DNA from: Asanoa hainanensis
Lineage (GTDB): Bacteria > Actinomycetota > Actinomycetes > Mycobacteriales > Micromonosporaceae
Direction of reading: 5' to 3'
DNA: 64,000 nucleotides
NCBI RefSeq assembly: GCF_900188485.1
Contig: NZ_FZPH01000006.1
Coordinates: 154,618-218,617 of the forward strand
The notes under the pieces are model-generated. The model had not been told where the DNA came from and did not search any database. It worked only from the letters and a program-made list of their open reading frames with translations. Numbering within the stretch: the first letter of the stretch is position 1; each line of letters opens with the position of its first letter. The position numbers and the translations under genes were made by a program. This document shows positions 48,414-56,329 of this stretch, in pieces.

Positions 48414-48665
48414 TCAGGCCGCGGTCGGCGGGTGGCCGCCGTCGCCGTCGACGACCGCGTCGGGGTTGCCGTCCTCGTCGAGGTCGACCATCGTGACGTC
48501 GGGCTTGCCGTCACCGTCGGTGTCGAACTGGAACAGGTCGGGCTTGCCGTCGCCGTCGGTGTCGACCACCCACACGTCGGTCTTGCCGTCGTTGTTGGCG
48601 TCGGCCGTCATCAGCTCGACGTGCTGGTCGCCGCGGGTCTCGACGACCTCTTCGGACTCGCTCAT
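48414..48665 (-). CDS. Small DxDxDG-repeat protein (four 13-residue repeats)
   Basis: 83 residues. After a 20-residue acidic head come four 13-residue units of the form D-x-[DN]-x-DG-x-x-D-V/L-hydrophobic (DANNDGKTD, DTDGDGKPD twice, DLDEDGNPD). These are calcium-loop repeats like those of dockerin, thrombospondin type 3 and FG-GAP proteins. There is no signal peptide or membrane helix, so the protein appears cytoplasmic. ATG 48665 with GAGGAG upstream. Paralogue of the next gene on the same strand. Confidence 0.75.
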   Translation of the reverse strand: MSESEEVVETRGDQHVELMTADANNDGKTDVWVVDTDGDGKPDLFQFDTDGDGKPDVTMVDLDEDGNPDAVVDGDGGHPPTAA

Positions 48666-48791
48666 CGGATCTCCTCGCGGGTGCGGTGTGTGCTCCGGCA
48701 CAACCTACGGCGAGTGCGTCCCCATCGCGACTCGACGCTCGGTGCGGCCGTCGGCTCGCTTACCCGCCCTACGCTGCCCGGAAACAGACCG

Positions 48792-49292
48792 CTAGTTGGT
48801 GGCGTACGGGTTCGCGGTCATGGTGGCCAGGTCCGGGATGCCGTCGTAGTTCGTGTCGCGCATCCAGGCGTCCGTGCGGCCGTCGAAGTTGAGGTCGAAG
48901 GAGACGGCGTCGACCCGGCCGTCGTTGTTGATGTCGCTGGCGACGACGTCCGCGTGGCCGTCGCCGTTGACGTCCTGGAGCAGTTGGTCGGCCACCCCGT
49001 CTTCGTCGTAGTCGCGCATCGTGGTGTCGAGCCGGCCGTCGCCGTCGCTGTCGCTGTAGGCCGTCTCGATCACGCCGTCGTGGTCGCCGTCGAGGGCGAC
49101 CAGGTCGGCGTAGCCGTCGCCGTCCGAGTCCGTGATGATGCGGCTGCCACCGTCGACATCGAGCTCCACGATGGAGTGCGGCACGCCGAACCCGGCCGGC
49201 TCCCCTGCGAAGCCGGCCGGATCGTCGTTGCTGCCGAAGCCGTCCGTGGCGTCCTGGTCACTGGCCAGGTACGAAGAGTCCCACTCGCTCAT
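48792..49292 (-). CDS. DxDxDG-repeat protein (eight 13-residue repeats)
   Basis: 166 residues. The head (about 1-55) is acidic and Gly/Phe-rich, then eight contiguous repeats of exactly 13 residues: DSDGDGYAD, DGDHDGVIE, DSDGDGRLD, DYDEDGVAD, DVNGDGHAD, DINNDGRVD, DLNFDGRTD, DTNYDGIPD, each followed by four mostly hydrophobic residues. No signal peptide. A calcium-binding solenoid is likely; cellular role unknown. Separated from the shorter paralogue by 126 bases and may share a promoter or be independently expressed. Confidence 0.78.
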   Translation of the reverse strand: MSEWDSSYLASDQDATDGFGSNDDPAGFAGEPAGFGVPHSIVELDVDGGSRIITDSDGDGYADLVALDGDHDGVIETAYSDSDGDGRLDTTMRDYDEDGVADQLLQDVNGDGHADVVASDINNDGRVDAVSFDLNFDGRTDAWMRDTNYDGIPDLATMTANPYATN

Positions 49293-49347: not shown

Positions 49348-50694
49348 TCAGTGGCGGATCACCATGCCCGCCTTGTCGAGCGCCTTGATGATCTGTGCCG
49401 ACTCGCCGAAGCCGATCACCAGTACGCCGTCCGGACCGCTGCTCTTGATCTGGCTGGCGCCGGCCGCGAAGTCGATGTCCGGCGCGGCGGGCGTCGGAGG
49501 CTCGTACGTCACCGTCTGGATCATGTCGACCGGGAAGCCGGCGCGCTCCAGTTCGGACTTGACGTTGCCCTGCAGGCCCGTGCCGTACGAGTCGTTGCGG
49601 GCCACGATCGTGATCTTGCGCGGGCCGTCGCGCAGGATGACGTCGGCCAGCGCGCGACCCTGGAGGATGTCCGACGGCGCGGTGCGGAAGTAGAGCCCCT
49701 TGTCTTCGACCGTGGTCAGCCCGGCGTCGGTGTTGCACGGCGAGAAGAGCACCAGGCCGGCCTTGACCACCTCGGGCAGGACGGCGCGGGAGATGCTCGA
49801 GGCACCCGCACCGATGATCACGCTGACCCCGGAGCCGATGTGCTTGGCCACGGTCGCCTTGGCGACGTCGGGGTTGGTGCCGTCGTCGCCGGGCACCCAG
49901 GTGACGTCCTTGTCGAACACCCCGCCGGCCGCGTTGACCTCCTTGATCGCCAGCGCGGCAGCCGCCTCCATCGGCGGGTACGCGATGGCCAGGTCACCGG
50001 TCTCCGGCAGCAGCCCGCCGATCTTGAGCTCGGCCTCCTTGCCGCCGTCAGTGGAGCCGCCCGACGGGGGCTTCTTCGTCGTGGTGGCCGACTCGTCACC
50101 CGCGCCGACGTATTCCGTCTTGGCGTCGTCGAGCTTGTCCGTCGCGTCGAAGTGCAGCGTCGCGTAGCTCGCGGTCGACGGCTCGCCGGCGTCGGTGAAC
50201 CCGCCGCGGGTCAGCGAGACGCCGCGGTACTGCAGGTCGGTGCCGGCGCGGGCGAGCGCCAGGCAGTCCTTGGCGGTGTCGCACTCGGTGCCGCCGGTGG
50301 TGACCGAGTTGATCTGCTTGGCGATCTCGCTCGGCTCGTTGGTGCCGGCCTGCTGCGCGGCGAGCGCGCTGATCAGGATCGCGTCGTAGGTCTCACCCGC
50401 GTACGAGAAGTCACCCAGACTGGGTCGCAGGGCCTTGAGCCGCGCCTTGAAGTCTTCGGACAGCCGGGTGAGCGGGGTGGTCCCCTTCATCCCGGCGAGC
50501 ATGCCCGCCTGTTCCTTGAACTCATCGCCGAACGAGTTGATCATGTTGCCGTCGGTGCCGTACAGCCTGGCCGGGTTGGCCACGGCGTCGGCACCCTGCG
50601 GCGGCGGCGCGTCTTCGCCACAACCGGCGATGGTCAGCACGAGGGCGGCGCACGTGGCGATGGCCAAGTGGCGCGCTCTGCGGGAGACGAGCAT
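49348..50694 (-). CDS. Leucine-type substrate-binding lipoprotein with swapped halves
   Basis: 448 residues, lipobox IAGC (Cys25). Residues about 44-198 (LYGTDGNMI..., ETYDAILISALAAQQAG, CDTAKDCLALARAG, FTDAGEPSTASY) look like the C-terminal half of a Peripla_BP_6 protein. Residues about 222-448 (LKIGGLLPETGDLA, AAALAIKEVNAAGG, LYFRTAPSDILQGRALAD, ARNDSYGTGLQG, LVIGFGESAQIIKALDKAG) look like the N-terminal half. The halves are joined by a Ser/Thr/Lys/Gly linker (199-221). The order is reversed relative to the family, i.e. a circular permutation. No transporter genes are adjacent. Confidence 0.85.
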   Translation of the reverse strand: MLVSRRARHLAIATCAALVLTIAGCGEDAPPPQGADAVANPARLYGTDGNMINSFGDEFKEQAGMLAGMKGTTPLTRLSEDFKARLKALRPSLGDFSYAGETYDAILISALAAQQAGTNEPSEIAKQINSVTTGGTECDTAKDCLALARAGTDLQYRGVSLTRGGFTDAGEPSTASYATLHFDATDKLDDAKTEYVGAGDESATTTKKPPSGGSTDGGKEAELKIGGLLPETGDLAIAYPPMEAAAALAIKEVNAAGGVFDKDVTWVPGDDGTNPDVAKATVAKHIGSGVSVIIGAGASSISRAVLPEVVKAGLVLFSPCNTDAGLTTVEDKGLYFRTAPSDILQGRALADVILRDGPRKITIVARNDSYGTGLQGNVKSELERAGFPVDMIQTVTYEPPTPAAPDIDFAAGASQIKSSGPDGVLVIGFGESAQIIKALDKAGMVIRH

Positions 50695-50804: not shown

Positions 50805-51209
50805 GTGTCAACATCATCGATCCTCGAGAACGGCCCTGGCGCGCTTGCCGAGCGGATGGGCATCAAGCTGACCGAGCTGACCCCGGAGCGGGTGGTCGGC
50901 AGCATGCCGGTCGACGGCAACACGCAGCCGTACGGCCTGCTGCACGGCGGCGCGTCCTGCGTGCTGGCGGAGACGTTGGGTTCCGTCGCCGCGGTGCTGC
51001 ACGGTTACACGGTCGACCGGCCGCTCGCCCTGGGCGTCGACATCAGCGCCACCCATCACAAGGCGGTACGCGAGGGCACGGTCACCGGTGTCGCGACCCC
51101 GGCACACCGTGGGCGCGGGGTGGCCACGTACGAAATCGTTATCACCGACGAGGCCGGCGACCGGGTCTGCACCGCGCGGCTCACCTGCCTGTTGCGCTCG
51201 GCTGGGTGA
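50805..51209 (+). CDS. Hotdog-fold acyl-CoA thioesterase (PaaI type)
   Basis: 134 residues. The active-site segment GLLHGGASCVLAETLGSVAA carries the HGG motif and the Glu of the PaaI/YbgC hotdog family, followed by the long strand TARLTCLL. Hydrolyses acyl- or aryl-CoA thioesters; the precise acyl group is unknown. Divergent from the permuted binding protein. Confidence 0.87.
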   Translation: MSTSSILENGPGALAERMGIKLTELTPERVVGSMPVDGNTQPYGLLHGGASCVLAETLGSVAAVLHGYTVDRPLALGVDISATHHKAVREGTVTGVATPAHRGRGVATYEIVITDEAGDRVCTARLTCLLRSAG

Positions 51210-51260: not shown

Positions 51261-51650
51261 GTGGTCGAGGTTCCCCCGGATGCGGTCGACGACGCCGCGC
51301 AGGTGTTGCGGCTCGCGCTCGACGGTGACAGCGACGCGGTCGCAAACGCCTTCGACGCGGTGGTCGACCGCTCCGGCGTGGTCGGCGCGTACGACGTCGC
51401 CTGGTGTCTGGCCGCGACCATGGTCGGCGACAGCGTGCCGGTCGGCCGGTGGACGCTCGACTTCCCGGACATCGAAGACGCCGGGTACGACACGCGCTGG
51501 GTGGCCCGATTCGTCAGCGCGTACGCCAACAGCGACGCGTCGACCGGCGAAGCGCTGTTCGGTGCCGCGCTGGAAGACGGTCAACTGCCGGAGTGCCTGC
51601 TGACGCTGGCCGGCTCGGCCGTCGCCACGCTCCGCCGCCGCACTCAGTAG
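51261..51650 (+). CDS. Conserved hypothetical protein
   Basis: 129 residues, soluble and acidic, mostly alpha-helical by composition. No family recognised. It starts with GTG after a leaderless-type -10 box and overlaps the convergent secreted-protein gene by 7 bases. Third-position GC is as high as in neighbouring genes, supporting that it is coding. Confidence 0.6.
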   Translation: MVEVPPDAVDDAAQVLRLALDGDSDAVANAFDAVVDRSGVVGAYDVAWCLAATMVGDSVPVGRWTLDFPDIEDAGYDTRWVARFVSAYANSDASTGEALFGAALEDGQLPECLLTLAGSAVATLRRRTQ

Positions 51651-56119: not shown

Positions 56120-56329
56120 TCAGTCGCCCTGGCGCTGCTGGGGAATTTGCCCCTGCAGCAGGGCGCGAACCTCGGATTCACGGTAGCGGCGGTGGCCGCC
56201 CAGCGTGCGAATCGCGCTGAGCTTTCCGGCCTTCGCCCACCGGGTCACCGTCTTCGGGTCGACACGGAACATCGACGCGACCTCTGCCGGCGTGAGTAGC
56301 GGCTCGGGTTCGTGCGTACGCGATGCCAT
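56120..56329 (-). CDS. bldC: Developmental regulator BldC
   Basis: 69 residues, almost all one MerR-like helix-turn-helix: LLTPAEVASMFRVDPKTVTRWAKAGKL, then RTLGGHRRYRESEVRALLQ. Length and sequence match Streptomyces BldC, which binds DNA as head-to-tail oligomers and delays differentiation. ATG with GGAGGAG 6 bases upstream. The gene order bldC-hypothetical-vdh-DUF3073-purM-purF is the one seen in Streptomyces, apart from the inserted cassette at 59192-60545. Confidence 0.95.
   Translation of the reverse strand: MASRTHEPEPLLTPAEVASMFRVDPKTVTRWAKAGKLSAIRTLGGHRRYRESEVRALLQGQIPQQRQGD

Follow-up and report, generated by a model that had tools for sequence, protein, structure and literature searches.

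The substrate-binding proteins LivJ and LivK and their kin (PF13458; PDB 4gnr, 3ipc, 4n0q, and 1usg) belong to the same sequence family as the permuted protein described here, with conserved ligand positions. Descriptions of natural circular permutation mostly concern a single, old event that sets distantly related proteins apart. Circular permutation by tandem duplication has been proposed for DNA methyltransferases and for saposins and swaposins, and among those cases a fold is known to have been permuted more than once. The event considered here is of the same kind; it differs in that the LIV-type case appears to recur in orthologues, at one syntenic position and in two neighbouring loops. 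A literature search, which had most subscription papers outside its reach, found no paper on a permuted LIV-type protein, and TpMglB-2 (Tp0684) of Treponema pallidum was the only natural permutant of a binding protein that it returned. TpMglB-2 is described as a "Type Ic/Cluster Bc" ligand-binding protein of the sugar-binding MglB family; strands one to three of its N lobe have moved to the end, and the hinge is crossed a fourth time. The segment that moved is a poor match to EcMglB, at 13% identity, and tethering was raised as a possible reason for the permutation (PMC4990184).

The window, a stretch of 64,000 nucleotides from Asanoa hainanensis, contains at 49348..50694 the gene of a circularly permuted LIV-type substrate-binding lipoprotein, recognised by translation, profile searches, and AlphaFold2. 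The preliminary description had placed the gene correctly, and translation located it on the minus strand, with an ATG start codon at 50694 and the stop codon, included in the coordinates, at 49350-49348; the product has 448 amino acids. All its parts lie on the minus strand. Residues 1-25 (50620..50694) read as a signal peptide with the lipobox LTIAGC, whose lipid-carrying Cys25 is invariant among 18 permuted homologues. The ancestral C-terminal part now comes first, at residues 41-192 (50119..50574; positions 224-372 of the canonical model, by profile and alignments), and opens with the strand RLYGTDGN, which bears the ligand acid D48. Residues 193-220 (50035..50118) form a linker from the old C-terminus to the old N-terminus; it had been expected to be rich in Ser, Lys, and Gly, and its sequence contains these residues together with Pro. 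The ancestral N-terminal part is now last, at residues 221-445 (49360..50034; model positions 3-221, by profiles), and the new C-terminus, residues 446-448 with the stop codon (49348..49359), falls by its sequence at the cut site called A below. C138 and C144 do not vary among 18 diverse permuted proteins, and a disulfide between them is probable. Like LivJ and LivK, the window protein is a lipoprotein, and its permuted relatives outside Micromonosporaceae adjoin livFGMH; unlike them, it has a swapped chain order, an anchor on the lobe-2 part, and a linker across the old ends, and its gene stands without transporter genes.

The swapped order was evaluated with a profile made from 22 canonical-order homologues only, which gave two matches in the window protein. 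Residues 41-192 align with model positions 224-372 of 374 (143.5 bits, iE 5e-41), and residues 221-445 with model positions 3-221 (236.0 bits, iE 3.8e-69). The later model segment thus precedes the earlier one in the chain, as had been proposed from the sequence. Three canonical profiles were tried with controls, and the reversed sequence and 20 shuffles gave at most 1.7 bits. The canonical N-to-C domain order is absent from the window protein, and homology over the whole domain is present. It had also been suggested that each half be compared separately with Peripla_BP_6. The second half agreed with this expectation, since PF13458 (profile 2-214) matched residues 223-443 with 127.3 bits against a cut-off of 31.7; the first half did not, its sole Pfam match being a weak one to ANF_receptor (profile 228-326, E 0.017). 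As Pfam matches only the second part well, annotation by such models overlooks the swap. A profile of the C-terminal half searched against PDB sequences reached a best E of 0.51, which is weak, with the right placement in 3ipc. Judged on these alignments, the window protein is a permuted variant of the Peripla_BP_6/LIV-type family.

It might be argued that the protein is a chimera made by head-to-tail fusion of halves of two distinct paralogues, given that the two half-trees give the Micromonosporaceae halves different nearest neighbours. We regard this as very improbable, because one canonical-only profile matches both halves (143.5 and 236 bits), and because in the half-trees of the Geodermatophilaceae and f41 proteins the nearest canonical relatives of one half overlap with those of the other. 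A tandem double domain was rejected: among the 259 ORF records (229 distinct sequences) that contain both halves, neither half is repeated in any. The gene of one homologue (L099) is divided between two frames, as an assembly artefact or a pseudogene might be, but intact permuted ORFs occur in at least 27 genomes from the first survey and also in numerous assemblies made independently; this conservation refutes the artefact, to which we give a negligible probability, and agrees with the earlier view that the gene is not a pseudogene. None of the outcomes named in the preliminary description as contrary to a permutation (canonical order, tandem domains, or lack of a two-lobe fold) was seen. The window gene encodes a genuine natural circular permutant; it is intact and conserved, and its product is predicted with confidence to fold.

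The structure of the mature window protein was predicted by AlphaFold2 with 48 permuted homologues aligned to it (49 sequences). The model is one confident domain (pLDDT 93.0, pTM 0.89), and a closed two-lobe trap of type I is indicated by this prediction. For a site-B protein the prediction, made on only 6 sequences, had a pLDDT of 52. When the window model was compared with the PDB by Foldseek, LIV-type proteins ranked first (4n0q, 3ipc, 1z15, and 2lbp); for most of the top LIV-type rows about 225-240 columns were aligned, with a TM score by target of about 0.4-0.5 (0.53 for 4n0q). Partial alignments of this kind, which cover the larger part of the domain, are expected when a sequential aligner meets a permutant.

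The new termini had been placed between the two lobes. The alignment to 3ipc puts them instead inside lobe 2: the cut falls between canonical model positions 221 and 224, that is, between the helix ending near residue 221 and the strand to D226 when the canonical profile is compared with 3ipc. This strand, LYGTDGN in the window protein, we take to belong to lobe 2, ahead of the second hinge crossing. With such a cut, in lobe 2 and not in the N lobe, membership of the TpMglB-2 class as described in PMC4990184 was rejected. TpMglB-2 and the window protein are both natural permutants of lipid-anchored type I binders that keep the trap fold (predicted for the window protein), and they differ in that the latter is cut in the C lobe, has two clearly homologous parts, and has canonical orthologues in the same slot. 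Regarding the ligand site, S79, T102, and D121 of LBP (1usg) align by phmmer with S299, T322, and D342 of the window protein, and D226 of 3ipc corresponds in the canonical alignment to D48 of YGTDGN. All four residues (4/4) are invariant across 18 diverse permuted homologues. In LBP/LIVBP, S79, T102, D121, and E/D226 contact the amino-acid ligand, and the window protein would use the four equivalent side chains to bind an amino acid, as LivJ/LivK do.

The swapped order is not confined to the genome of Asanoa hainanensis. Among 61 related genomes, full-length one-piece homologues were found in at least 33 places in at least 27 genomes; all 32 translated places were permuted, the 33rd (G001, C5) being outside the translated set. 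With the window's own protein set aside, the best homologue per genome was 45-94% identical to it, and at least 6 of the 61 genomes had a second full-length homologue. Permuted proteins were held by at least 26 of the 37 f1 (Micromonosporaceae) genomes, a family for which such a survey had been proposed, and by at least 1 of the 24 others. Across named genomes there were at least 549 relatives, and among the best 80 of these, 79 were permuted in a single frame and the 80th was L099; the 80 comprised 46 from Micromonosporaceae, 25 from Geodermatophilaceae, and 9 others, namely, one Nocardioidaceae, one Ilumatobacteraceae, and MAGs of Acidimicrobiia and other Actinobacteria. In wider samples, permuted counts refer to one-piece matches to the permuted profile. 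A class sample gave a strong match in at least 119 of 296 genomes, at least 10 of them permuted (translation confirmed 10/10), and a phylum sample gave one in 39 of 246 genomes, 4 of them permuted (4/4 confirmed), with 2 of these 4 genomes common to the class sample. Family f41 had a match in 94 of 149 genomes, with 10 permuted (10/10 confirmed); the binding-domain sequence of one of its genomes, G580, is the same as that of the Nocardioidaceae MAG. Family f80, probably Ilumatobacteraceae or kin, had a match in 60 of 101 genomes, 35 of them in one permuted piece, of which 24 were confirmed by translation. Two irregular frames were observed. At L099:2605-3986 (Micromonospora sp. ATA32) the permuted gene extends over two overlapping frames, by a frameshift or a sequencing error, and at L101:5725-7182 (Acidimicrobiales) the reading frame seems to be lost at about residue 190 of the open frame and regained at about residue 245, perhaps by an indel pair or assembly errors.

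Two cut sites were distinguished, about 20-25 residues apart, flanking the ligand-acid strand LYxxDGN. At site A, seen in Micromonosporaceae, Geodermatophilaceae, f39, f49, and f41, the protein ends soon after the helix (GIGPNS, GIGPNA, GIGPQR, or GMVIRH) and starts with xLYxxDGN; most C-termini are within a few residues of each other, and a few (e.g., L025) are about 8 residues longer. At site B, as read from the sequences of Acidimicrobiia MAGs, f80, and G440 of f67, YGxDGNMGNALGENFDAGK or a similar stretch would stay C-terminal and the start would be at LEGMKGT. The linker sequences vary by lineage. An AGDE motif at the join is common to many Micromonosporaceae and Geodermatophilaceae proteins, which favours one event for these two families.

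Gene neighbourhoods were compared for both forms. The canonical orthologues of Micromonosporaceae (L113, L115, L117, L119, L120, and L122) and others elsewhere (L121, L195, and L197) are convergent to livF-livG-livM-livH, in a slot flanked mostly by pdtaR and pyk on one side and polA on the other. The permuted orthologues of Geodermatophilaceae, f49, and f41 occupy this same slot, and that of f39 (L191) has livFGMH and polA on one side and different genes on the other. In f80 and the other Acidimicrobiia examined the permuted gene is convergent to the liv genes and the locus lacks pdtaR and pyk, and in G440 the liv genes adjoin it in a different arrangement. Six within-genus pairs of a canonical and a permuted protein were examined, and in 6/6 both forms are convergent to the liv genes: in f41, with liv genes and pyk, G653/G645 (g81), G121/G688 (g93), and G638/G635 (g151); in f80, with liv genes only, G732/G784 (g192), G728/G792 (g235), and G485/G726 (g272), the canonical genome being named first. 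Considering this synteny, the permuted protein outside Micromonosporaceae is most likely the binding subunit of the LivFGMH importer. A long N-terminal extension was observed in the slot LivH at L113:1032-2354, L123:10665-12683, and L193:10842-12197; two were searched, that of L123 matching CarboxypepD_reg (E 1.3e-9) and that of L113 matching none. It looks unusual for LivH to carry a fused extracellular domain.

The number of permutation events was estimated on trees built from both halves rearranged to canonical order. The main tree was reduced from 183 proteins to 144 by similarity and to 83 by hand, and contained 81 after L117 and L184 were removed for their long branches; an f41 tree (46 rows) and an f80 tree (57 rows) were also hand-picked. 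L225_C was dropped from the f41 AU test, and L101, part of which is off-frame, was excluded from alignment A5 and from the C-half tree and kept in the main tree. The groups tested were named after seeing the trees. The permuted state needed 5 changes on the 81-sequence tree (5-95% range 5-5 over 200 bootstrap trees), a single origin of it appeared in 0% of the 200 bootstrap trees, and 6 changes were needed when the cut site was coded as a third state. Forcing the 29 site-A proteins into one clade cost 144 log units and was rejected (p-AU 1.8e-5). One clade of f39, f49, and f41 had p 0.08 with a sparse sample and was rejected with a dense f41 sample (p 4.65e-6), and the 11 permuted proteins of f41 formed one clade among canonical ones (95/84). 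For site B as one clade, p was 0.116 at first and 0.0125 with more f80 rows, a weaker rejection. Micromonosporaceae plus Geodermatophilaceae as one clade was compatible with the AU tests (p 0.29 and 0.38), and these two may represent one event; canonical f8 sequences are nested beside them. In the alignments made, the closest permuted and canonical pairs are 67-73% identical in f41 and 57-59% in f39/f49, and at best 63% in Geodermatophilaceae, 62% at site B, and 48% in Micromonosporaceae.

From these trees, the permutation has probably recurred in the family in five in-place events, and in at least three or four; the five are probably Micromonosporaceae with Geodermatophilaceae, f39 with f49, f41, the main site-B clade, and G440. 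If permuted and canonical copies exchanged sequence by gene conversion, this count could be too high. An alternative explanation is one ancient permutation that spread horizontally, with later recombination, in which local canonical copies converted either half, giving the scattered tree, and with site B as a later shift of the ends. The near coincidence of most site-A C-termini across lineages would fit such a history, as would the single clade formed by the f41 permuted proteins of several genera, and the alternation of permuted and canonical genes within genera at one slot implies that in-place replacement occurs. However, the AU tests reject one site-A clade, each half alone likewise needs 5 changes in quick half-trees, and the linkers vary by lineage, while site B requires another break; we consider the single origin unlikely. 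It is very probable, in our judgement, that we are dealing with a LIV-type lipoprotein of normal trap fold that has been permuted repeatedly in its family, at two loops.

The situation in Micromonosporaceae is particular. Among the best 80 of at least 549 relatives, LivM was found in the locus in 22 of 25 Geodermatophilaceae and 8 of 9 other lineages and in 0 of 46 Micromonosporaceae, 38 of whose loci were compared over full 13-kb stretches. No LivFGMH importer genes adjoin the window gene, and the window genome (G000) has no LivM of the slot importer at E<=1e-60. The permuted copy of Micromonosporaceae, that of the window included, is thus an orphan at a distance from transporter genes, and some genomes have duplicates of it. 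G000 itself has two permuted genes, one in the window and one on C27; the latter (L111:6942-8291) is 76% identical to that of the window and adjoins an apparent oligopeptide-type ABC operon.

Around the window gene, a divergently oriented hotdog thioesterase gene (4HBT/PaaI-like) lies at 50805..51209 and a 129-aa protein without Pfam match, which we call DUF129, at 51261..51650, both on the plus strand, and a BldC-like MerR-type regulator (HTH_17) lies at 56123-56329. Two adjacent genes made of Asp/Gly-rich 39-base repeats were also observed at 48417-49292, one with a weak match to DUF6802 below the cut-off; relatives of the two are near the substrate-binding protein in 43 and 19 of the compared loci.

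The most likely role of the Micromonosporaceae copy is to serve a different permease or to function as a receptor for scavenging or sensing. That these copies are orphan receptors or scavengers whose new role was selected after separation from LivFGMH is a reading to which we give even chances. It accords with the lack of the slot LivM in G000 at the threshold given above and with the 6 of 37 f1 genomes that do have it, each with a canonical substrate-binding protein at the slot; with the long stem branch of the permuted Micromonosporaceae proteins (0.58); and with the conserved new neighbours, DUF129 being near the permuted gene in 40 and BldC in 34 of the 46 Micromonosporaceae loci among the best 80 of at least 549. 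The invariant ligand residues argue against it, and so does another Liv-type system in G000, with its own substrate-binding protein and LivH (L112), which might accept the permuted protein.

As to the mechanism, the gene would have been duplicated in tandem in place, the copies fused in frame, and the outer halves lost, with the signal peptide of the first copy kept. The resulting chain has the order lipobox, ancestral last 150 residues, linker, and ancestral first 220 residues, as found in the window protein, and is predicted to retain the normal two-lobed trap fold; by the alignment, the lipid anchor would shift from the first strand, in lobe 1, to the ligand-acid strand, in lobe 2. Tandem copies, the raw material for this duplication route, were found at two loci. 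At L225:1397-4523 (G654, C78, f41) two canonical copies stand in tandem between pdtaR and livF, with open frames 19 bases apart, the first copy being fast-evolving (branch 0.78), and at L253:1186-4791 (G736, C22) two site-B permuted copies are in direct tandem, with open frames 3 bases apart. A fused duplicate intermediate was seen in 0 of the 259 ORF records mentioned above (229 distinct). The move of the anchor from lobe 1 to lobe 2 could be the selective reason for the permutation; an anchor in lobe 2 might present the trap to a LivH with an extra extracellular domain. That the binding protein of one Liv importer is a permutation hotspot in the Actinobacteria, permuted in place at least 4-5 times at one or other of the two loops, with the anchor move repeatedly favoured and the two forms later replacing one another in single genera, is in our estimate as credible as its negation.

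The importance of the finding lies in the canonical and permuted orthologues that stand side by side in six genera, with the closeness noted above for f41 (67-73% identity). With closely related pairs in the same slot, the steps of the permutation, its reason, and its effect on binding and transport become directly testable. The permutation points also provide natural positions at which to place new termini in proteins of this scaffold, a family used for biosensors, and the relatives across Actinobacteria constitute a natural experiment on protein rewiring.
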